A stretch of DNA of 43,430 nt from Ignavibacteriota bacterium (GTDB taxonomy: Bacteria; Bacteroidota; Ignavibacteria; UBA10030). Both the position numbers and the translations under genes were made by a program. Below, in pieces: positions 4,045 to 33,450 of this stretch; the first letter of the stretch is position 1; every line of letters starts with the position of its first letter. Under the pieces are notes generated by a model. That model did no database searches, was not told where the DNA came from, and was given only the letters and a program-made list of their open reading frames with translations. The stretch spans positions 41,435 through 84,864 of the forward strand of contig PLMK01000031.1 in the NCBI GenBank assembly GCA_003142475.1, read 5' to 3'.

Positions 4045-4848
4045 TTGATTACTACAACAATCAAATTTATTGTTCTTAACATCATCTTTGTTTACTTCTG
4101 TTTCTCACAAACCTTAACATCAACTATTTCCGATAGTGCAGCATCAACAACGTTATCAACTGCAATTGTGTTCGGAGTTACCGGTGCTGCAGCGGTGACC
4201 GGTTTGCTTTTTCATTATGATCAAGATATCTATAATGAACTTCATAGTTGGCGAGAAAATAATATCGTAGTTCGAAAAGTAAGTCCGGTTATTACAAATC
4301 TAGGTGACGGTACGTTCTCTGCGGGACTATTCGTAGGATTCGCCGGATATGGATTAATCTCCAAGGACAAGAAGGCAGTTGAAGTTGGCAAGATCGGCAT
4401 CGAATCCTTTCTTCTTACCGGAATTACTGTTCAATTGTTCAAAAACCTGTGCGGGCGCGAACGTCCAAGCGCTGCAACTCGACCCGGTGGATTTTGGTAT
4501 GGACCGTTTGCATATTTCAGCAAATCAAAAGGGAGCGGCAAGGGGATTTCTTCCTTTGATGCTTTTCCTTCAGGACATACAACGACAGTCTTTTCTGCCG
4601 CTACTACTATTTCAGATTTCTATACTGAACCATGGGTGTCCTACCTCTGTTACTCACTCGCGACAGTAACAGCGGTGAGCAGGGTTACTGAAAGTACTCA
4701 TTGGATGAGCGATTGTTTTGTCGGTGCAATTATCGGGCATTATGGAACGCGATTGATAGAAAAGTTGAATTATGGTTCCAGCAGCATCACTCTCCTGCCG
4801 CAAGCAAGTGAGCACCAGTGTGGCCTACTTCTTAGTGTAAAGTTTTAA
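4045..4848 (+). CDS. PAP2-family phosphatase (phosphatidic acid phosphatase type 2), exported or membrane
   Basis: The protein has 267 residues if translation starts at the TTG at 4045, which directly follows an in-frame TGA; no ATG or GTG fits better, and the resulting N-terminus (FIVLNIIFVYFCFSQ) looks like a signal peptide. All three PAP2 motifs are intact: K-x6-RP (KNLCGRERP), PSGH, and SR-x5-H-x3-D (SRVTESTHWMSD). The family removes phosphate from lipid phosphates or isoprenoid diphosphates such as undecaprenyl diphosphate at the membrane. A second paralogue follows after 8 bases, so they are co-transcribed. Substrate unknown; a lipid A or undecaprenyl diphosphate role is possible. Confidence 0.87.
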   Translation: MITTTIKFIVLNIIFVYFCFSQTLTSTISDSAASTTLSTAIVFGVTGAAAVTGLLFHYDQDIYNELHSWRENNIVVRKVSPVITNLGDGTFSAGLFVGFAGYGLISKDKKAVEVGKIGIESFLLTGITVQLFKNLCGRERPSAATRPGGFWYGPFAYFSKSKGSGKGISSFDAFPSGHTTTVFSAATTISDFYTEPWVSYLCYSLATVTAVSRVTESTHWMSDCFVGAIIGHYGTRLIEKLNYGSSSITLLPQASEHQCGLLLSVKF

Positions 4849-4856
4849 AGGATAAT

Positions 4857-5768
4857 ATGAGACATTTATTTATTTCTGGATTTCTATTCATAAATTTATT
4901 CATTGGTACTCTCTACAAGAGTCAAGCACAAGAAACACAAAAATTATCCATGCCGGATTCAATCTTAACTTTAGATAATGCGGATTCAGAAAATGTCCAA
5001 TGGTACTCGATGTTTGCAAATATACCGCGTGATTGGGAACGCTGGTACGACGTTTCATTTAGAAAAGAACGCATCAATGAATGGCTTATCATCGGAGGAC
5101 TCACACTTGCGACATATTTTACGGATGACATTACATATACACCGGCAGCTAAGTTCTACTACGGTTCAGCATCTGCAAAAAATTTGAGCGATTTCTGCGC
5201 AAACATCGGCGATGGAACTACACAGTTTGCTCTTGCAGGAACGCTAGGAGCATATGGGCTTGTATTCAAAGATCAGAAAGCATTACGTACAGGCAGCCAG
5301 ATTGTACAGGCAGTGCTGGCATCGGGTGCTATTATTCAGGTGCTCAAACATGTTACAGGCCGTGAAAGTCCGTTTGTACGCACTACGCCAACTGGAGTGT
5401 GGAAAATTTTACCCAACCAAATTGATTATCATCGCAGGGTGCCGCAATTCGATGCCTTTCCATCCGGACATTTATGTACTTCTATCGCTACCGTTGTTGT
5501 GGTTGCAGAAAATTATCCAGATGAAAAATGGATTCGTCCAGTTGGATATGCATTTACCACGATTGTCGGACTTGGTATGCTCAGCAATGGTATTCATTGG
5601 GTAAGCGATTATCCGCTTGGATTGTTCATCGGTTATTATTTTGGCATGCTTGCTGCACATCCGGAAGGACTACCGGTAATAGACTCTGGAGATGGAAAAC
5701 TGAAAGTGCATATCTTGCCAAATGTCACTCCAATCGGAACCGGTGTTAGTTTAACAATGAATTTTTAA
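4857..5768 (+). CDS. PAP2-fold protein with degenerate active site
   Basis: This 303-residue paralogue of the upstream PAP2 protein begins with a clear signal peptide ending SQAQ and has AAAGGATAAT just before its ATG. The fold is recognisable: PSGH is present (FPSGHLCTS) and the motif 3 His and Asp remain (GIHWVSD). However, motif 1 reads KHVTGRESP, with Ser where the Arg of RP should be, and the Ser-Arg of motif 3 is replaced by Gly-Met (GMLSNGIH). Two phosphate-binding arginines are therefore lost. It may be a binding or structural partner of its neighbour, or use a different substrate. The tail ends in an aromatic residue (TMNF), like many outer-membrane proteins. Confidence 0.82.
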   Translation: MRHLFISGFLFINLFIGTLYKSQAQETQKLSMPDSILTLDNADSENVQWYSMFANIPRDWERWYDVSFRKERINEWLIIGGLTLATYFTDDITYTPAAKFYYGSASAKNLSDFCANIGDGTTQFALAGTLGAYGLVFKDQKALRTGSQIVQAVLASGAIIQVLKHVTGRESPFVRTTPTGVWKILPNQIDYHRRVPQFDAFPSGHLCTSIATVVVVAENYPDEKWIRPVGYAFTTIVGLGMLSNGIHWVSDYPLGLFIGYYFGMLAAHPEGLPVIDSGDGKLKVHILPNVTPIGTGVSLTMNF

Positions 5769-6958: not shown

Positions 6959-7264
6959 TTTAATTCTTATCCTTTAATGGTTAAAATATAGCCAACGATT
7001 TTCTGCGAACCAAGAGGTGCGTTGAATCGTGAATAAATTTCGATATTAAAAGAATGGCTGTTGCAATTATTACGGTAGGTAGAAAATGATTAATGTACAG
7101 TGACTCATTAAATTAAAGAAAAGGAATAACACGAAAGAAAATAAAACAAGAAAAGAAGTCATATTCGGTTAGCGAGACAGAATTTAAAGACACATTGAAG
7201 AAAATTCTTCACGCTCCGACTTTTAATAAAAAGAAAAAGAAGTCTAAGTGAATTAGTTTCTGTG
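6959..7264. other. Intergenic region between ychF and the tRNA-like gene
   Basis: This stretch of about 306 AT-rich bases has no standard gene. The only coding-like signal is the lysine-rich frame at 7126-7251, described separately. No copy of the tRNA 3' end that could mark an attachment site was seen here. Confidence 0.5.
7126..7251 (+). pseudogene. Possible small lysine-rich protein gene without a standard start
   Basis: The frame ends in TGA at 7249-7251 and reads through KKSYSVSETEFKDTLKKIL and then a HAPTFN turn with a KKKKKSK tail. This looks like a real small protein: an amphipathic FKDTLKKIL helix followed by a proline turn and a basic tail. No ATG, GTG or upstream TTG lies in frame after the stop at 7114; only ATA codons at 7126 and 7141 and a late TTG are available. 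It may be a decayed gene, use a rare start, or be chance. A sequence AAAGGA sits at 7120-7125. Confidence 0.3.
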
Positions 7265-7362
7265 GGAGCATTAGTTCAATTGGTAGAACGACAGACTTCT
7301 TAAGTTCACTTATAGATGGATTTAAGAATCTGTTTATAAGGGTTCGAGTCCCTTATGCTCCA
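7265..7362 (+). tRNA. tRNA-like gene with an enlarged anticodon arm (pseudo-tRNA or unusual tRNA)
   Basis: The ends fold as a perfect tRNA: acceptor stem GGAGCAT (7265-7271) with ATGCTCC (7355-7361) and discriminator A, D arm GTTC/GAAC around AATTGGTA, T arm AAGGG/CCCTT around TTCGAGT, and outer anticodon stem ACAGA (7291-7295) with TCTGT (7329-7333). The anticodon region is 33 bases instead of 7. Its flanks TTCTTAA (7297-7303) and TTAAGAA (7322-7328) pair, and the pairing can continue to an 8-base loop at 7309-7316. Without the extra ~26 bases the loop would resemble CTTCTAA, the arginine UCU loop, but this is a guess. CCA is not encoded. Only two bases separate it from the stop codon of the PIN-domain gene on the other strand. 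Confidence 0.5.
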
Positions 7363-7364
7363 CT

Positions 7365-7907
7365 TCAATCTTTTGGAAGTACGAATTGCGTTTTCAGTTC
7401 TCGAAGCATTTCAAAAGTATTCTTCCATTTAACACCGAAGGCTGTACATACATTTGGGATTGGAACTCTTTTCTTGCTTTCAAGATTTAACACCTCATGT
7501 GTCACAAGAATTTTATTATCTTTTTGGGCTTTTACATGCGCGATTAACCATCCATCAGCACCATTCGCAAATTCTTCTTTCGCCTCTAAAAAATATTGGG
7601 GTTGGTGCATCACCCAATTAATTATTTCTTGATAATCTTTAATAACATCATTGTCATCTGTTGCGCAGAAAAATGAAGGTGGAACTGTCGCCTTTATCCA
7701 TTTCTTTATTTCATCGCCATAATTACCATCATTTATTTCTTTTTTAACTTTATCGATACTTTCAATCCTTGACTTTGCATGATTAATGAGCAGAGAATCC
7801 CAAAAAGCGGGACAAATATCGAAAGCATAATAGCGGTTTTTAGCTTCTATTAAGACGTTCGCATCAATTACATACGTTTCAGGAATTATGACCTGTTCGT
7901 CGTTCAA
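7365..7907 (-). CDS. DUF4411 PIN-domain protein, probable toxin
   Basis: This 180-residue protein has the PIN ribonuclease layout: an N-terminal strand with the first acidic residue (YVIDANVLIEAK, D15), a helical middle, then GADGWLIAHV with a second conserved Asp and a strand LVTHEVL. This arrangement matches the DUF4411 family, regularly encoded with XRE/ImmA proteins and regarded as a toxin of a toxin-antitoxin-like pair. It overlaps the upstream partner by 4 bases (ATGA), indicating translational coupling. PIN proteins cut RNA, often tRNA or rRNA; the target here is unknown. Its stop codon lies two bases from the tRNA-like gene. Confidence 0.82.
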   Translation of the reverse strand: MNDEQVIIPETYVIDANVLIEAKNRYYAFDICPAFWDSLLINHAKSRIESIDKVKKEINDGNYGDEIKKWIKATVPPSFFCATDDNDVIKDYQEIINWVMHQPQYFLEAKEEFANGADGWLIAHVKAQKDNKILVTHEVLNLESKKRVPIPNVCTAFGVKWKNTFEMLRELKTQFVLPKD

Positions 7908-9058
7908 TTGATTCCAAGTTTTATTGAATACTCATTAAAAGTTTTTTCATGAAGACCTGTTAATCGATAGGCATCACGATAAAGAAGCCGTCCTTCTTTT
8001 GTCGCCTGGATTACGGCATGAGCAAATCTTTTCCCAATCCTTACATTTTGATTTCTATAAAAATCGCCTCCGCCCTTTTTAGATTTTTTCGTTAATTGTA
8101 AATCTTCCTGTTCTTCTTTATATTTTCCATAAAATGCTAAGAAACGCGTTAGATTTATAAAACCAAGATCAAGTGCGCGACGCGCAACAACAAGAGTGCT
8201 TACCTTAAACTGCTTAGATAAACTGCCAAACGGATTCTTTGTGTTTTCGACTTCTTTCCAAGCTTTCCGGATTTCATTCTCTGGAACTAAAAATTCTGCC
8301 GCAACCTTATTACAAAACTTCTCTTTGTTGTCATCAAACGGTTGTAAAAACGCTAAGTTAAAAATACTACCACTTCCTAACCATACATGTGCTAATTCAT
8401 GCGCGATAGTAAACATTTGCGCACCTTCAAAATCGGCACCATTTATAAATATCAAAGGTGCCATATTGTCAATTAAAACAAATCCACGAAATTCGGCAAC
8501 ATCCAATTTGCGATAATTATTGTTCCCTACAACGCCATTTCTCGCTATTAAAATACCGGCTCGATCAACCAAGTTGCGCAATGCTGCCAATGCATCTCTC
8601 CATGTGCTATAATGTGCCGCCCAATCCGTAGTAAGTCCAAAAGTATCTCTAATGCTTTTTGCCGCAAACTTTATATCGGTATCTACCGTGACAGAACCGA
8701 CAAAAGGAAGCGGTGTTTCTTTTTCTTCGATAAGATAATCATGCATCCAATTTTGCCGACGTCGCATCGTATGGAATGTTTCTATCAGATTTGGACTTGG
8801 TCGAAGGATATGTTTATCCTTAACTGTTCGGAAGTTAGGAATTGGTAAGGTTTCGTCTGGGGGTTCTTGTAGGAATAAATAACCTAACGGTGTGTATGTT
8901 TTGTGTGCGAATTTTTCGAGTTGTTTTAATTCGGGGGATTCTTCCCCACTCATCCATTTGAGAAACTTTGGGAATTTTTCTAATATATATTCGACTGTAA
9001 GCCCAGAGCGTTCCCTTGCCCAGTTAAGAATCTGACTATTGACTGCGATTGTACTCAT
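7904..9058 (-). CDS. XRE / ImmA-IrrE family metallopeptidase, probable antitoxin-regulator
   Basis: This 384-residue protein begins with an XRE-like helix-turn-helix region (LNWARERSGLTVEYILEKFP, about 12-60) and carries an ImmA/IrrE (DUF955) zinc peptidase domain with HELAH at residues 220-224 (FTIAHELAHVWLG), followed by the usual helical end with KFCNKVAAEFLVPE. Family members act as repressor-like antitoxins or cleave a partner regulator under stress. It is the first gene of a two-gene unit with the PIN protein, overlapping by 4 bases. The unit faces away from argC and looks like an accessory cassette. ATG start at 9058. Confidence 0.88.
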   Translation of the reverse strand: MSTIAVNSQILNWARERSGLTVEYILEKFPKFLKWMSGEESPELKQLEKFAHKTYTPLGYLFLQEPPDETLPIPNFRTVKDKHILRPSPNLIETFHTMRRRQNWMHDYLIEEKETPLPFVGSVTVDTDIKFAAKSIRDTFGLTTDWAAHYSTWRDALAALRNLVDRAGILIARNGVVGNNNYRKLDVAEFRGFVLIDNMAPLIFINGADFEGAQMFTIAHELAHVWLGSGSIFNLAFLQPFDDNKEKFCNKVAAEFLVPENEIRKAWKEVENTKNPFGSLSKQFKVSTLVVARRALDLGFINLTRFLAFYGKYKEEQEDLQLTKKSKKGGGDFYRNQNVRIGKRFAHAVIQATKEGRLLYRDAYRLTGLHEKTFNEYSIKLGIN

Positions 9059-9095
9059 AGGATTACTTCAAATTTTGATATTATTTGTCTAATAA

Positions 9096-9181
9096 GCAAA
9101 CATTGGATTTTATCGTTTGTTTGCGCTAGTTTTCTCTCTGTATAATTCCCGCATATCCAGCGTTTGCGAAGTATACACTTC
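9096..9181. promoter_or_regulatory. Possible operator dyads upstream of the ImmA/PIN pair
   Basis: GCAAAC (9096-9101) pairs with GTTTGC (9119-9124), and GAAGT (9168-9172) pairs with ACTTC (9177-9181) around ATAC. These are candidates for autoregulation of the divergent XRE-ImmA gene. Only the symmetry is seen; the role is inference. Confidence 0.25.
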
Positions 9182-9214
9182 CGAATATTTTTCACTTGCA
9201 TAATTATCCATATC

Positions 9215-9262: not shown

Positions 9263-10279
9263 ATGATTTCTGTTTCCGTTGTCGGTGCATCCGGTTATTC
9301 GGGCATCGAACTTTTGAAAATTCTCGTTCGGCATCCAGGTGTGTGCATAGATAGGCTCTTTGCAAATTCTTCCGCAGGTAAACATCTCGCAGATGTCGTG
9401 CCATCATTCAGTAAAACAGTAGACATGGTGCTTGAGCTGTATTCTGTCGATAAAATAGTAAAGAGCGATCTGGTTTTTGTTGCGCTTCCATCGGGAGAAG
9501 CAATGAATCTTGTCCCAGCAATGCTTTCAGAAGGAAAACGGGTCATTGATCTCGGCGGCGACTTTCGTCTGCAGGATACTTCATTGTACGAGCGATATTA
9601 TAAACGAAGTCACTCGGCGAGCACAATACTAAAACAATCTGTATATGGTTTGCCGGAATGGAATTGTTCTCAGATCAAATCAGCATCTCTTATTGCAAAT
9701 CCGGGCTGTTATCCAACAAGCGCCATCCTCCCGCTTGCCCCACTTTTAAAAGAAGGCATTATTGAATCGAAAGGCATCGCCATTAGTTCACTCTCGGGTG
9801 TTTCTGGTGCCGGACGCAGTTCTTCAACCGAGATGTCGTTTGCAGAAGTGAATGAATCGGTTCGTGCATATAAAGTTGGTACGCATCAGCACATTCCAGA
9901 AATTAAGTCGATATTGGAATCACTTTCAAATACACAGGTGAAGCTCTCATTTGTGCCGCATCTTCTTCCTATCACGCGCGGTATTTATACTTCATCGTAT
10001 GCGACATTAAAAAAGCCATTGACTGAGCAGACAATTCTTGATGTATATGAAAAATATTATGCAACAGCGCCATTTGTTCGATATTCCGCAACAGCAATTC
10101 CGGAAATTAAAAACGTTGCATATACGAATTTCATCGATATTGGCTTCCGCATTAACCACGAAGACGGACAGCTCGTCCTTCTTTCTACAATTGACAATTT
10201 AATAAAAGGCGCAGCGGGACAAGCGGTACAAAATATGAATATCATGTTTAGACTGAACGAAACAGAAGGATTACAGTAA
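9263..10279 (+). CDS. argC: N-acetyl-gamma-glutamyl-phosphate reductase
   Basis: This 338-residue enzyme performs the NADPH-dependent reduction of N-acetylglutamyl phosphate to the semialdehyde, third step of arginine synthesis. Evidence: the N-terminal Rossmann start VVGASGYSGIELL, the catalytic cysteine C149 in NPGCYPTSA, and the later GVSGAGRSS segment. Length is normal. AAGGAG at 9245-9250 precedes the ATG by 12 bases, slightly far. Its TAA overlaps the ATG of argJ by one base, so the two are translationally coupled. First gene of the arg row and likely controlled through the palindrome at 9215. Confidence 0.97.
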   Translation: MISVSVVGASGYSGIELLKILVRHPGVCIDRLFANSSAGKHLADVVPSFSKTVDMVLELYSVDKIVKSDLVFVALPSGEAMNLVPAMLSEGKRVIDLGGDFRLQDTSLYERYYKRSHSASTILKQSVYGLPEWNCSQIKSASLIANPGCYPTSAILPLAPLLKEGIIESKGIAISSLSGVSGAGRSSSTEMSFAEVNESVRAYKVGTHQHIPEIKSILESLSNTQVKLSFVPHLLPITRGIYTSSYATLKKPLTEQTILDVYEKYYATAPFVRYSATAIPEIKNVAYTNFIDIGFRINHEDGQLVLLSTIDNLIKGAAGQAVQNMNIMFRLNETEGLQ

Positions 10280-11496
10280 TGGAAATTGATGCATCACAGG
10301 AATGCGCCGGCGGTGTAACGGCAGCACAAGGATTTACAGCCGGCGGAGTTTATTGCGGTATACGCAAGGCAAAAAAGGATATTGCCATTGTGCAGTCGGC
10401 AAAACCGGCTGTTGTCGCTGGTGTATTCACACTGAACAAAGTTATTGCAGCGCCTTTACTCGTTGATAAAATTCAACTTAAGAATTCGAATGTATGTTCA
10501 GCCGTCGTTGTCAATAGCGGAAACGCTAACGCTTGCACAGGTGAGCAAGGAATGAAAGACGCGTGGATGATGGTCGACACGACCGCCGATGCTCTTCATT
10601 TGCCGCGGGAGCAAGTGATGGTCTCTTCTACCGGTGTTATCGGGCAATATCTTCCGATGGAAAATGTTGTGAGTGGCATCCGTGATCTATCAACAAAGCT
10701 TTCTGTAGATGGAAACAAAGATGCAGCTGAAGCAATCATGACAACCGATATTTTTCCTAAACAATGTGCCGTGCGTGTTCCTTTTGGAACGTCTGTTATC
10801 ACAATTGGCGGAATGGCTAAAGGTTCCGGCATGATTGCACCGAACATGGCAACGATGCTTGCATTTGTTACCACCGATGCTGTCATTGCGCCATCGGCGT
10901 TGCAGGCGGCGTTACGCATTGCAAACAATCATTCTTTCAATCGCATTACTGTCGATGGCGATATGAGTACGAACGATATGCTGCTTGTGCTTGCAAACGG
11001 ATTAACGAAGAATGAAGAGATTCGGGAAAAAACTCCTGCATTCCAGCAATTTCTTGCCGCACTCGAATATGTACTTATTAAACTTGCAAAGATGATTGCA
11101 CGCGACGGTGAAGGCGCTACAAAGTTTATAGAAATCGTTGTAAGCGGAGCGCGAACGGAAGATGAAGCTGTGCAAGCCGCGCGGGCTGTGGCAAATTCAA
11201 ATCTAGTTAAAACCGCACTTCACGGTGCTGATGCAAATTGGGGCAGAATTCTAGCCGCAGTTGGATACTCCGGTATTGATTTCGATCCGGCAAAAATATC
11301 AATTGGCTTTGACGATTTGCTTGTGCTGAAGCCGAATTACGAAATTGTTCTTGACGAAGAAAAAGCAAAGACGAAACTCTCGCAGGAAAACATCACAGTG
11401 CTTATCAATTTACATCAAGGTTCCGCTGAAGCATGCTTCTGGACGTGCGATCTGACAAAAGAATATATTCATATCAACGCAAGTTATCGTTCATAA
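10279..11496 (+). CDS. argJ: Bifunctional glutamate N-acetyltransferase / ornithine acetyltransferase ArgJ
   Basis: This 405-residue Ntn-type enzyme transfers the acetyl group from N-acetylornithine to glutamate, making the acetyl cycle self-sustaining. The autocleavage site is visible in APNMATMLAF, where T192 would become the nucleophile of the beta chain; GGMAKGSGMI precedes it. The C-terminal DLTKEYIHINASYRS is the usual end. ArgJ implies the cyclic pathway, consistent with no argA or argE in the row. Whether it also accepts acetyl-CoA cannot be read from the sequence. Confidence 0.96.
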   Translation: MEIDASQECAGGVTAAQGFTAGGVYCGIRKAKKDIAIVQSAKPAVVAGVFTLNKVIAAPLLVDKIQLKNSNVCSAVVVNSGNANACTGEQGMKDAWMMVDTTADALHLPREQVMVSSTGVIGQYLPMENVVSGIRDLSTKLSVDGNKDAAEAIMTTDIFPKQCAVRVPFGTSVITIGGMAKGSGMIAPNMATMLAFVTTDAVIAPSALQAALRIANNHSFNRITVDGDMSTNDMLLVLANGLTKNEEIREKTPAFQQFLAALEYVLIKLAKMIARDGEGATKFIEIVVSGARTEDEAVQAARAVANSNLVKTALHGADANWGRILAAVGYSGIDFDPAKISIGFDDLLVLKPNYEIVLDEEKAKTKLSQENITVLINLHQGSAEACFWTCDLTKEYIHINASYRS

Positions 11497-29741: not shown

Positions 29742-32630
29742 TTATTTATATTCTTCTATTGGTGGACAGGTGCAGAATATATTCCGATCACCATAGGTGT
29801 TGTTGATGCGGCCTACAGAAGGCCAGAATTTATTTTTTTTTTGTGATGGGACCGGAAAGACTGCTTGCTCGCGCGAATATTTGTGATTCCACGAATCGCT
29901 TGTCACTGCCCAAGACGTGTGCGGTGCATTCTTCAAAGGATTATCAATTTTATCAAGTTTCCCTTCTTCGATATCCTGGATTTCTTTTCTGATAGTAATC
30001 ATCGCATTGATGAAGCGATCAAGCTCGGCTTTCGGTTCGCTTTCGGTTGGCTCAATCATCATTGTGTCATGAACAGGAAACGATACCGTAGGTGCATGGA
30101 AACCGTAATCCATAAGCCGCTTCGCAATATCATCTACATCAATCCCAGCACGTTCTTTGAAATAGCTCATATTTAAAATAAATTCATGCCCTACTCTTCC
30201 ATTCTTACCTTGATAAAGAACCGGATAATATTTTTCTAATTTCGACTTCAGATAGTTAGCATTAAGGATAGCTATCTTCGTAATTTCTTTCAATCCTTCC
30301 GCGCCAAGCATTTTTATATACGCGTAGGAGATAAGTAAAATATTTGCACTACCCCACGGAGCAGAAGCAACAGCGTGTATGGATTTATTACCACCGACTT
30401 TCACAATCGAATGTCCGGGCAAGTACGGCATAAGATTCTCCGTTACACAAATAGGTCCCATCCCTGGACCGCCGCCGCCATGTGGAATTGCAAAAGTTTT
30501 ATGCAGATTGATATGGCAAACATCGGCGCCAATTTCTGCAGGAGACGTAAGTCCGACTTGTGCATTCAAATTTGCGCCGTCCATATATACCAATCCACCA
30601 TTTTCGTGAATGATATTGCATATTTCTTTTATGCGTTCTTCGAACACGCCATGTGTGGATGGATACGTTACCATAAATGCGGCAAGCGTATCTTTGTACT
30701 GTATTGCTTTTATTCGTACGTCGTCCACATCAATATTGCCTTGTGCATCGCAATTCACTATGACTACATTCATTCCTGCCATTACTGCGCTGGCGGGATT
30801 AGTACCATGTGCGGACGATGGAATAAGAGTAACATTACGCTGTGCTTGTCCGTGATCCTGATGAAAAGCGCGAATCACAAGCAAACCTGTAAACTCACCC
30901 TGCGCGCCGGAGTTCGGTTGAAGTGATGTCGCTGAAAAGCCAGTCGTTTTGTAAAGTGCACTTTCTAGTTCTTGAAATATTTTAAAATATCCCTTTGATT
31001 GATCAGCCGGTACAAACGGATGAATGTTTGCAAACTCCGGCCACGTCAATGGAAGTAATTCTGTCGCAGCATTTAATTTCATTGTACAGGAACCGAGCGG
31101 AATCATTGATGCTGTGAGCGAGAGATCTTTGTTTTCCAAACTTTTAAGATAGCGCATCATAGCTGTTTCAGAATGATAGGAATTAAACACTGGGTGCCGA
31201 AGATACGTACTCGTCCTCTGGAATGGAAACGGATATAAAACTGTCGTCAATTTAAACAACGCATTAAGCGATTCTTTGTTAACAACATCACCCCTGACTT
31301 TTGAAAAAATATTTACCAGTGCTTCAATATCTTCTAACGACGTCGTTTCATCCAGAGAAACACCAATATATTTATCTTCGATGAATCGTAGATTATAACC
31401 AGCCTCAACTGCAAATTGAATAATTTGTACCGTTTGCTTCTTGCCGGTAGTTTCAATTTTCAGCGTATCAAAATAAATATTGTTGAGCTGAATATACCCA
31501 CGTTTTATTAGTTCATTTTCCAGTAATTTAGTCAGGCGATGAATTCTGGTGGCAATTCTTTTTATGCCTTCGGGCCCGTGATAAACCGCGTACATTCCAG
31601 ACATTATCGCTAATAATGCTTGCGCTGTACATATGTTTGATGTTGCTTTCTCGCGACGAATGTGTTGTTCACGAGTTTGAAGTGTCAGGCGGTATGCAGT
31701 ATTGTTTTGAGCATCAATCGAAACACCAATAACTCGGCCTGGTATGCTACGAATGTATTCATTTTTAGTTGCTAAGAACGCCGCATGTGGACCACCGTAA
31801 CCGAGAGGAATCCCAAATCGCTGAGTGCTGCCGATAACAATATCCGCACCAATATCGGCTGGTGGTGTCAGCAGTGCCAACGCCATCAAATCCGTTGCGA
31901 TAATAGCAATTGCACCTGCGTCATGAACTTTTTTAATGAATCCACGCCGATCAACTATTGCACCATCATCATTGGGATATTGAATCAGTGCTCCGAAGAA
32001 TGACTTATCAAACCCTACTGTATCAGGATCACCAATGACAACCTCGATATTGTGAGGAGTGGCGCGCGTAAGAATTACATCAATTGTTTGACGGTAACAT
32101 CGTGCAGAAACGAAAAATTTATTTGCGGGCGTTTTGGGAGATTTGTTGACAATACCATACGCCATCGCCATTGCTTCTGCGGCAGCAGTACCCTCATCTA
32201 AAAGCGAAGCGTTTGCGACCGGCATCTCTGTAAAGTCTGAAACCATCGTTTGGAAATTGATAAGCGCCTCAAGACGGCCCTGCGAAATTTCCGGCTGATA
32301 TGGTGTGTACTGTGTGTACCAACCTGGATTCTCAAAAACATTTCGTTGAATTACACTTGGCGTAATGCAGTTGTAATACCCTTGACCGAGATAAGATTTA
32401 AGAACGATATTGCTCCTTGCAATTTCGCGAAGTTCATTCAGTATCTCGTACTCCGTCTTTGCAGGATCCGTCTCGATCTGTTTTTTGCTACGGATGATTT
32501 CGGGAATTGTCTGATCAATCAATTCATCCAGCGAATGAGCACCGATGGCATTTAGCATCTCGGGAATTTCATGCTCACGCGGGCCAAGGTGGCGAAAGAG
32601 AAATTCATTTTTCTGTTGCAATGTTTTCAT
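29742..32630 (-). CDS. gcvP: Glycine dehydrogenase (decarboxylating), P protein, single chain
   Basis: This 962-residue PLP enzyme decarboxylates glycine and loads the aminomethyl group onto the H protein lipoate. Both halves of the fused form are present: N-terminal FLFRHLGPREHEIPEML and ASLLDEGTAAAEAM, C-terminal GSCTMKLNAATE and SSAHGTNPASA. The PLP lysine is about K711 in NLHKTFAIPHGGGGPG. It overlaps the end of rnc by 26 bases, so the two are coupled. No gcvT or gcvH is next to it, and the overlap leaves no room for a glycine riboswitch. Confidence 0.97.
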   Translation of the reverse strand: MKTLQQKNEFLFRHLGPREHEIPEMLNAIGAHSLDELIDQTIPEIIRSKKQIETDPAKTEYEILNELREIARSNIVLKSYLGQGYYNCITPSVIQRNVFENPGWYTQYTPYQPEISQGRLEALINFQTMVSDFTEMPVANASLLDEGTAAAEAMAMAYGIVNKSPKTPANKFFVSARCYRQTIDVILTRATPHNIEVVIGDPDTVGFDKSFFGALIQYPNDDGAIVDRRGFIKKVHDAGAIAIIATDLMALALLTPPADIGADIVIGSTQRFGIPLGYGGPHAAFLATKNEYIRSIPGRVIGVSIDAQNNTAYRLTLQTREQHIRREKATSNICTAQALLAIMSGMYAVYHGPEGIKRIATRIHRLTKLLENELIKRGYIQLNNIYFDTLKIETTGKKQTVQIIQFAVEAGYNLRFIEDKYIGVSLDETTSLEDIEALVNIFSKVRGDVVNKESLNALFKLTTVLYPFPFQRTSTYLRHPVFNSYHSETAMMRYLKSLENKDLSLTASMIPLGSCTMKLNAATELLPLTWPEFANIHPFVPADQSKGYFKIFQELESALYKTTGFSATSLQPNSGAQGEFTGLLVIRAFHQDHGQAQRNVTLIPSSAHGTNPASAVMAGMNVVIVNCDAQGNIDVDDVRIKAIQYKDTLAAFMVTYPSTHGVFEERIKEICNIIHENGGLVYMDGANLNAQVGLTSPAEIGADVCHINLHKTFAIPHGGGGPGMGPICVTENLMPYLPGHSIVKVGGNKSIHAVASAPWGSANILLISYAYIKMLGAEGLKEITKIAILNANYLKSKLEKYYPVLYQGKNGRVGHEFILNMSYFKERAGIDVDDIAKRLMDYGFHAPTVSFPVHDTMMIEPTESEPKAELDRFINAMITIRKEIQDIEEGKLDKIDNPLKNAPHTSWAVTSDSWNHKYSREQAVFPVPSQKKNKFWPSVGRINNTYGDRNIFCTCPPIEEYK

Positions 32631-33450
32631 TCCCAGCTTTTAAAGGTATAGGGTTGAGTTGAATATATTCAAGCGCTCGCGCGGCGGCAGCTTGTTCAGC
32701 TTCTTTCTTGCTCCTGCCAAAACCACTGCCATAGGACTGTGCACCAATTAAAACTTCTATTGTAAAACGCCTATCGTGTTCAGGTCCTTCTTCATGTTTA
32801 ACAGAATATCGTGGAATGCCCAGCGAACGCGCTTGTGTATATTCCAGTAGTGTACTTTTATAGTTATCATCTGCCATGGCAGAATTGAATACTTCTAGGT
32901 TTTTCAATAGTGTTGCATAAATAAATTTTCGCGCCGCTTCCAATCCACCATCTAAATATATAGCACCGATAACAGATTCGACGGCATCCGCAATGATCGA
33001 TTCTGAACCGCTGTCAATTGATTGCGCAGCACTCACACTCAATAGTAAGTAATCCGACAAGTGCAAATCTTTTGCGCGCTGTGCCAGAATTCTTCTATTG
33101 ACCAATCGTGAACGCAATTTAGTTAGTTCTCCCTCTTCCATTTCTGGATAATTTACAAAGAGATGTTCCGCAACGATAAAATTCAAAATTGCATCGCCTA
33201 AAAATTCCAGCCGTTCATTGGAATTCCACGGTATTTCGAGAAACTGAAGATAGGAACGGTGAAGCAGCGCTTGCAGGAACAGTTTCCAATTACATGGATA
33301 GTAGTGAATAGCTTTTGTGAACCGTACGAAATCAAATTTCGTAGAGCTGAGCTTCTTTACAAGGAATTTGAACTGCTCGTCCCGTGAGAAACGAGAAAAC
33401 CATTGTAGGCGAAGTCGGCAACAAAGCCGACGGAATACGTTATTCAACAC
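32605..33450 (-). CDS. rnc: Ribonuclease III
   Basis: This 281-residue double-strand RNase has the RNase III signature ERLEFLGDAIL (about 79-89), a second acidic cluster in SIIADAVESVIGAIYLDGG, and a C-terminal dsRNA-binding domain (about 205-272, ending in SKKEAEQAAAARALE). It has an extended N-terminus of about 45 residues before the catalytic domain. AAGGAG lies 2 bases before the GTG at 33450 and 5 before a TTG at 33447, so either may be used. It follows fabF, a common order (fabF-rnc). Confidence 0.96.
   Translation of the reverse strand: MLNNVFRRLCCRLRLQWFSRFSRDEQFKFLVKKLSSTKFDFVRFTKAIHYYPCNWKLFLQALLHRSYLQFLEIPWNSNERLEFLGDAILNFIVAEHLFVNYPEMEEGELTKLRSRLVNRRILAQRAKDLHLSDYLLLSVSAAQSIDSGSESIIADAVESVIGAIYLDGGLEAARKFIYATLLKNLEVFNSAMADDNYKSTLLEYTQARSLGIPRYSVKHEEGPEHDRRFTIEVLIGAQSYGSGFGRSKKEAEQAAAARALEYIQLNPIPLKAGNENIATEK

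Follow-up and report, generated by a model that had tools for sequence, protein, structure and literature searches.

Background

Introns in the tRNA genes of bacteria are, according to the available text of a review (PMC3984707), self-splicing group I elements, and the same text places the phage introns known to date in protein-coding genes, despite the many tRNA genes that phages carry. The accessible portions of two papers on T4-like genomes (PMC2993671, PMC1524935) report group I introns as well as tRNAs classified as "pseudo" by tRNAscan, and contain no mention of a tRNA intron. For another stable RNA, excision of intervening sequences from 23S rRNA by RNase III is established, and the resulting fragmented rRNA is functional (PMC4990558, available part). 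No description of short hairpin introns in phage tRNAs was found in the accessible open-access full text, a scope outside which most subscription papers and bioRxiv fall.

Here we describe a tRNA-like gene with an interrupted anticodon loop, located in a 43,430-nt stretch of DNA from an Ignavibacteriota bacterium (the window), and compare it with a family of viral tRNA genes that carry an insert at the same position.

Structure of the tRNA-like gene

The gene and its predicted parts are as follows.

7265..7362, + strand: tRNA-like gene, anticodon loop interrupted, CCA not encoded (Rfam RF00005, 62.7 bits; ARAGORN)
7265..7300, + strand: 5' exon with tRNA positions 1-36, including the anticodon UCU (7298-7300) (sequence)
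7301..7326, + strand: 26-nt hairpin insert TAAGTTCACTTATAGATGGATTTAAG (split after position 36)
7327..7362, + strand: 3' exon, tRNA positions 37-73 (sequence; Rfam tRNA match)
7291..7333, + strand: anticodon arm with its extension (stem of 5 bp, bulge at C32, helix of 12 bp that takes in the anticodon, loop of 8 nt)

A covariance search, as suggested in a preliminary description of the locus, matched 7265-7362 (+ strand) to the Rfam tRNA family RF00005 as a cloverleaf with a score of 62.7 bits (gathering score 29). By sequence, the acceptor (7/7), D (4/4), anticodon (5/5) and T (5/5) stems are all fully paired, which agrees with the earlier statement that the outer helices are perfect, and the anticodon region of 33 nt (usually 7) with its 26-base insert was found at the lengths given there. 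The earlier view that the insert is not a group I intron also stands, as it has only 26 nt and as no Rfam family other than RF00005 scored above its gathering score in the whole window. Group I introns are much longer than this insert, their ribozyme core having approx. 200 nt or more. The preliminary description had further noted that the anticodon region folds on itself; this hairpin is real, but the 7 bp assigned to it were too few, as 12 pairs (two of them G-U) join 7297-7308 with 7317-7328 above the anticodon stem of 5 bp, for a hairpin of 17 bp in all. In this arm, C32 is bulged, positions 33-38 lie inside the 12-bp helix and the terminal loop has 8 nt. For the complete RNA, the folding energy is -37 kcal/mol (z = -6.5; 0/200 shuffles as good), and its anticodon loop alone is stabler than at least 99% of mononucleotide shuffles (P = 0.002 and P = 0.007 in two runs), these P values being post hoc as it was the hairpin that drew attention to the tRNA.

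Joining the exons as CTTCT + AA, with removal of the 26-nt insert, gives the anticodon UCU and thus tRNA-Arg(UCU); the boundaries were placed by analogy with the phages PX29 and phiAS5 and by the full-length fit to a model (R2) built without the window gene (see below). ARAGORN reported the gene as tRNA-??? and, when introns were allowed, as an intron-containing tRNA. The Leu identity assigned in the latter case is ruled out by the absence of a long variable arm; the same Leu(aag) call was obtained for the genes of PX29 and Ah1, the insert-free orthologue of which is Arg(tct). When only the tRNA body was scored, the nearest intact tRNA was a phage tRNA-Arg. We also scanned viral contigs for the parent anticodon arm, using a pattern (GAACNACAGACTTCT and AATCTGT with 0-30 nt between) that does not require A20; all of the contigs that matched the anticodon arm of the window gene (62/62) carry an insert-free tRNA-Arg(UCU). 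A control scan of viral contigs for other split points of this arm found none, the 17 stretches that it returned having CTTTGAA (14) or CTCTGAA (3) loops. A20 is the usual ArgRS element. It is present in 62/62 of the insert-free viral tRNA-Arg(UCU) with the same anticodon arm, and is missing from the D loop of the window gene, AATTGGTA, so that the exon identity of the family (A20 for Arg) is not intact in this copy.

Hairpin inserts in viral tRNA genes

Viral contigs, genome contigs (115 stretches) and 395 genomes were scanned with D-arm and T-arm patterns separated by long spacers. Using fully paired acceptor (7/7), T (5/5) and anticodon (5/5) stems and an anticodon loop of at least 18 nt as criteria, at least 52 distinct insert-bearing tRNA-like genes were found in the loci collected, including the window gene. 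Seven of these (the window gene and six viral genes), which were picked by eye from the 52 after their folding and ends were known, share one architecture, i.e., a 26-28 nt insert between positions 36 and 37. Five members are Arg (UCU) with the ends CTTCT and AA (the window gene, L583, L593, L620 and L626; A20 in the latter four was required by the scan pattern), and two are Thr (UGU) with the ends TTTGT and AA (L227 and L729). All seven form the pairs 35:-1 and 36:-2 and have one pyrimidine bulged out at position 32, 33 or 34; the best fold of the two Thr members pairs 32:38 and 33:37, a register equivalent to 33:38 and 34:37. The window gene has its insert exactly at 36/37 (after CTTCT and before AA), within the 26-28 nt length range, and with the pairs 33:38, 34:37, 35:-1 and 36:-2. 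A near member with a shifted register, L191, lies in a stretch of genome G103 that contains other odd tRNAs. Among genome contigs, the sole clear hairpin insert under these criteria came from an archaeon (L397, Pacearchaeota), in agreement with the introns known from archaea.

Model R2, built from the six viral members with the window gene left out, aligned the latter over its full length with no non-standard pair and with a score of 72.3 bits, which is higher than the scores of all 37 ordinary tRNAs found in the host genome G000 (best 66.4 bits, Arg-tct). The margin is modest, because the insert-free orthologue of phiAS5 (70.5 bits) and L191 (70.2 bits) come close. The same alignment contains one non-standard extension pair in Ah1 and two in PX29. 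Across the seven members, 95% of the cells are paired and 14 of the 17 pairs have changed on both sides (0/500 shuffles), a count that is inflated because the seven were chosen from the 52 after their folding and common ends had been seen. Hairpins are not general in insert-bearing tRNAs, as only 13 of 35 loops reach P = 0.05. The isotype of the nearest neighbour of the tRNA body agrees with a split at 36/37 in the Thr members L227 and L729 and, among the Arg members, in L593, L626 and the window gene; it agrees with another split for L415 and L042 (Met) and L191 (Pro), and does not agree for L620 and L583.

Inserts of other forms were also observed. In four viral genes (L419, L425, L435 and L591), which differ in their anticodon stems, the anticodon loop is replaced by a conserved sequence of 29 nt near GGGCGGCCTGAAATATTGGCTTAGCTGAT, and three others (L412, L430 and L450) have related replacements of 31-32 nt that start with tagtactca and end with gaggaaa. 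An insert of approx. 45 nt between the D arm and a Lys-like anticodon arm is present in L184-L188 (1501-1590), L103 and L130; these genes come from Bacteroidota genomes and viral contigs, the viral ones carrying a GCAGCAAC motif. Long inserts with CAGCAA occur in the viral tRNA-like genes of L063, L089, L090, L092, L126, L128 and L135, and the same motif is found in tRNA t001 of PX29 (83777-83893), which is annotated in two pieces. Finally, a recurrent viral form (L039, L049, L080, L086 and others) combines a GCGAGCG acceptor and good D and T arms with no normal anticodon stem.

Aeromonas phages with and without the insert

Two of the viral members have tRNA sequences identical to those of cultured Aeromonas phages and represent these phages, i.e., L583 (PX29) and L620 (Ah1). 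By BLAST, the L583 tRNA matched Aeromonas phages PX29, AsFcp_1 and AsFcp_2 with 100% identity and Ah1 and avDM12-TAAL with 79% identity, while phiAS5 matched in two pieces (91.8%) with the insert left out. The insert-bearing gene follows gp57B in PX29, Ah1 and AsFcp_2; in phiAS5 and avDM12-TAAL, the tRNA gene follows an ORF with the size and place of gp57B. As the phiAS5 orthologue at this locus has no insert (gccttct-aagcac, as compared to gccttct-(26 nt)-aagcac in PX29), the insert boundaries are fixed, and neither end can be shifted by one base. The inserts of Ah1 and PX29 differ in sequence yet still pair, with +2:-4 being C:G in Ah1 and A:U in PX29. A single phage tRNA-Arg gene thus occurs with and without the insert at the same locus, as can be inspected in GU396103.1 (101162-101261), MG250483.1 (102761-102861) and HM452126.1 (199408-199480).

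ARAGORN identified the phiAS5 gene as a plain tRNA-Arg(tct) and missed the genes of PX29, Ah1, AsFcp_2 and avDM12-TAAL, with a Leu(aag) miscall when introns were allowed. In GenBank, the PX29 gene is labelled "tRNA-Lys" in two pieces, the genes of Ah1, AsFcp_2 and avDM12-TAAL are unannotated, and the AsFcp_1 record carries no annotation. PX29 has 25 annotated tRNAs, and the other 24 are not Arg by annotation and ARAGORN, in a survey that leaves out approx. 80 kb of PX29, where an unannotated Arg tRNA is possible. This phage also encodes rnlA and rnlB (RNA ligases 1 and 2), pseT (polynucleotide kinase) and a tRNA nucleotidyltransferase-like gene.

RNA ligases in contigs with insert-bearing tRNA genes

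Within the family, PX29 and the L227 contig (two PF09414 ligase matches) were positive for RNA ligases, with L593, L626, L729 and Ah1 left out of the count. PF09511 was found in 3 of 9 viral contigs with insert-bearing tRNAs (one of the 3 below the family cut-off), and PF09414 in 4 of 5 and 1 of 9 such contigs (5/14) as compared to 0 of 18 contigs with insert-free tRNAs. These numbers are only suggestive of an association between PF09414 and insert-bearing tRNAs, given that the 14 contigs were hand-chosen, that the control contigs were shorter (medians of approx. 47 vs. 70 kb) and came from other phage types, that all contigs may be fragments, and that L227 is the only one of the 14 that belongs to the seven-member family.

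In L221, which is outside the seven, an Rnl1-like ORF (9341-10411; PF09511 above cut-off, NCBIfam TIGR02308 below cut-off) starts approx. 330 nt after an insert-bearing tRNA gene (8914-9016), and L238 likewise has an insert-bearing tRNA gene upstream of an Rnl1-like ligase gene. L227 also contains an RNase P RNA-like match (4742-4963; 80.7 bits, under the gathering score of 100).

Host genome

In the host genome (G000), at least 38 tRNA matches were found (150 of 213 candidates scored); the window copy, at 98 nt, is the longest of those found, the next ones having 87 nt. Comparison with the other tRNAs of the genome, another check proposed in the preliminary description, showed that a normal tRNA-Arg(tct), with the anticodon UCU, is present at L020. 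A candidate for the cutting enzyme is encoded in the window.

32605..33450, - strand: gene for the RNase III of the host (234.7 bits with NCBIfam TIGR02191, cut-off 166.25)

The RNA ligase families RtcB, Rnl1 and Rnl2 (PF01139, PF09511 and PF09414) had no match in G000, and G004, a genome of the same genus, has RtcB. The tRNA intron endonuclease family tRNA_int_endo (PF01974) also had no match in G000, and was recovered by the same search in 4 archaeal controls. Neither a TATATT nor a TATAAT element was present upstream of the window tRNA gene (6990-7265). A perfect TATATT precedes 9 of 28 ordinary tRNAs, yet half of the 28 (14) have upstream stretches that score no higher than that of the window gene, and the missing promoter-like site is thus weak evidence. 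Just upstream of the tRNA gene, an open frame without a standard start codon (7120-7251) could encode a small lysine-rich peptide and is possibly a gene remnant.

Genomic island

The tRNA gene is part of a 2.14-kb island that also contains a DUF4411 gene and an ImmA/IrrE-type gene.

7041..9182, no strand: island between ychF and argC, ends approximate (empty site in relative G004)
7365..7907, - strand: DUF4411 gene, neighbour only (Pfam PF14367, E = 1.3e-50)
7904..9058, - strand: ImmA/IrrE-type metallopeptidase gene, neighbour only (Pfam PF06114)

In G004, the closest relative with this region (ArgC 89% identical), ychF adjoins argC with nothing island-like between them. At the ArgC loci of 19 relatives (L155-L173), neither DUF4411 nor ImmA had a match; YchF is beside ArgC in 12 of these loci and, within the stretch covered, is without a match in the remaining 7. 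A BLAST search of 60 relatives (E 0.001) gave no hit to the window tRNA, plasmids contained no match to it either, and the insert sequence (up to 3 mismatches) is single copy in G000 and present in 0 of the 60 relatives; with one genomic copy, the insert was rejected as a repeated element. None of 165 matching phage records covers 80% of the tRNA, the phage records among the matches listed being similar to its T-arm and acceptor parts, and a full-tRNA pattern of the window gene had 0 matches in viral contigs. Of 395 genomes from the phylum, 38, with the host genome itself among them, have a match to DUF4411 (E 1e-10), which we take to be PIN-like, and ImmA adjoins it in 29/29 and 5/5 homologue loci.

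Discussion

The data establish a viral tRNA family with an exact insertion point, a paired structure and a presence/absence polymorphism, and this family is found in T4-like and other viral genomes. The preliminary description had left three readings side by side, i.e., a pseudo-tRNA, a structured tRNA-like RNA and a tRNA with an unknown processing event. For the family as a whole, processing is best supported, both by an insertion point that unrelated viral tRNAs have in common and by the natural insert-free orthologue; for the window copy, a stranded or pseudogene state is likely, as A20 is lost, a host ligase was not found and a normal Arg(UCU) tRNA exists in the genome.

In the reading that we prefer, and that in our judgment has an even prospect of being right as a whole, the window gene is a mobile phage-type tRNA-Arg(UCU) with a short hairpin intron at 36/37 of a type that would be cut by RNase III and sealed by a ligase, this copy being probably stranded. 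RNase III, or a similar staggered cutter, would cleave both strands of the extended arm after position 36 and before position 37; the tRNA fold, in which the stem side would have a 2-nt 3' overhang, would keep the two halves joined, and an ATP-dependent RNA ligase of the phage would then join the 3'-OH to the 5'-P to produce a normal tRNA. When a cut after 36 and before 37 was modelled, all seven members (7/7) were left with exon nucleotides 35 and 36 and two insert nucleotides that had been paired across the cut, so that the modelled arm geometry fits a staggered cut by RNase III; this 2-nt offset is not independent evidence for each member, because it follows from insertion at 36/37 in a continuous helix. 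A 2-nt 3' overhang is the geometry of RNase III, and the 5'-P and 3'-OH ends that this enzyme leaves suit T4-type RNA ligases. The extended anticodon arms of the family have 17-19 bp, which is short for RNase III. The window copy is probably stranded, as no RNA ligase was found in its host and as A20 is absent; any transcript of it may be cut and would probably not be sealed. The broader proposal, that the tRNA introns of some phages form a new class (hairpins of 26-28 nt at 36/37 that host RNase III would cut out, with a phage ligase closing the gap), is put forward tentatively.

As an alternative, a fold-back copying error may have created a palindrome by neutral insertion into a dispensable, mobile tRNA gene, the helices of this pseudogene being kept because it arrived recently. 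The window gene fits such a history in being single copy, absent from the 60 relatives, accompanied by a normal Arg(UCU) tRNA, devoid of A20 and of a recognisable promoter, and present in a genome where RtcB, Rnl1 and Rnl2 ligases were not found; moreover, inserts do arise, as viral contigs hold insert-bearing tRNAs of many other forms (at least 52 insert-bearing genes in all). Neutral insertion is nevertheless unlikely, as six viral tRNA genes of two isotypes share the insertion site, length and pairing, as Ah1 and PX29 have both kept the insert, a change in one strand being compensated in the other, and as the insert-bearing gene is the only annotated Arg tRNA gene of PX29.

We regard as less probable still, and as rather improbable overall, that the RNA is never spliced and that the tRNA body serves as a stability and processing module that displays the hairpin, e.g., as a decoy for anticodon nucleases or as a form immune to them. 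All outer helices of the window gene are perfect and a DUF4411 gene adjoins it; in the available parts of the respective papers, RNA expression in E. coli makes use of an engineered "tRNA scaffold" that has a hairpin instead of the anticodon loop (PMC3753655), and loop mutations are proposed to let phage tRNAs evade anticodon nucleases (PMC10264068). However, decoding is impossible for an anticodon that lies within a helix. The viral exons nevertheless correspond to normal tRNAs, and phiAS5 has an ordinary tRNA-Arg(tct) as its insert-free orthologue.

A role of the window RNA as antitoxin or bait partner of the adjacent DUF4411/ImmA pair, suggested by a distance of 2 nt between the tRNA gene and the DUF4411 stop codon within the same island, is highly improbable and was rejected, as this RNA was conserved beside the pair in 0 of 34 DUF4411 homologue loci (L175-L179 and L545-L573; ARAGORN and model R1); in these loci, the matches of R1 were confined to ordinary Ser tRNAs of L562, at a distance of over 1 kb, and to one match in L178 that is at the level of chance (15.1 bits). 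Archaeal-type (bulge-helix-bulge) and group I introns share with the insert its location in the anticodon loop and are excluded, with next to no probability left, by its position (36/37 instead of 37/38), its continuous helix without a bulge-helix-bulge, the lack of a PF01974 match in G000, its length of 26 nt, far below the range of group I introns, and the failure of any other Rfam family to reach its score in the window.

If the broader proposal of a phage tRNA hairpin intron is true, a protein-based route of tRNA splicing would exist in the bacterial domain, phage RNA ligases would have a new job beyond repair, a number of phage tRNA genes that annotation at present overlooks or assigns wrongly would be real genes, and the window would hold a copy of a phage tRNA intron gene that has moved into a bacterial chromosome.

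Comparison with known systems

The closest counterparts of the window gene are the tRNA-Arg genes of the Aeromonas phages PX29, AsFcp_1, AsFcp_2, Ah1 and avDM12-TAAL, which have the same paired arm and a 26-28 nt insert at 36/37, and which differ from it in having A20 and, in PX29, RNA ligases and a kinase. Bacillus cereus tRNAOther is also a non-standard tRNA beside a genomic island, although a hairpin insert is not described for it in the available text (PMC3399842). According to the accessible part of PMC10264068, the tRNA repair system of T4 (Pnkp and Rnl1), a member of the same phage group, rejoins tRNA broken in the anticodon loop; that system mends damage, whereas the insert of the family is encoded. 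Intervening sequences of 23S rRNA are likewise stem-loop inserts in a stable RNA with the same proposed cutter, but 23S rRNA is functional in its fragmented state (PMC4990558, available part), while a tRNA would need ligation. The protein-spliced tRNA introns of archaea and eukaryotes are also short, located in the anticodon loop and dependent on an endonuclease and a ligase, and their 37/38 position, bulge-helix-bulge motif and endonuclease are absent here (PMC4090602, available part). Group I introns also interrupt bacterial tRNA genes and differ in being self-splicing (PMC3984707, available part); a short hairpin intron removed by a common nuclease and a phage ligase would represent a different way of tRNA splicing.
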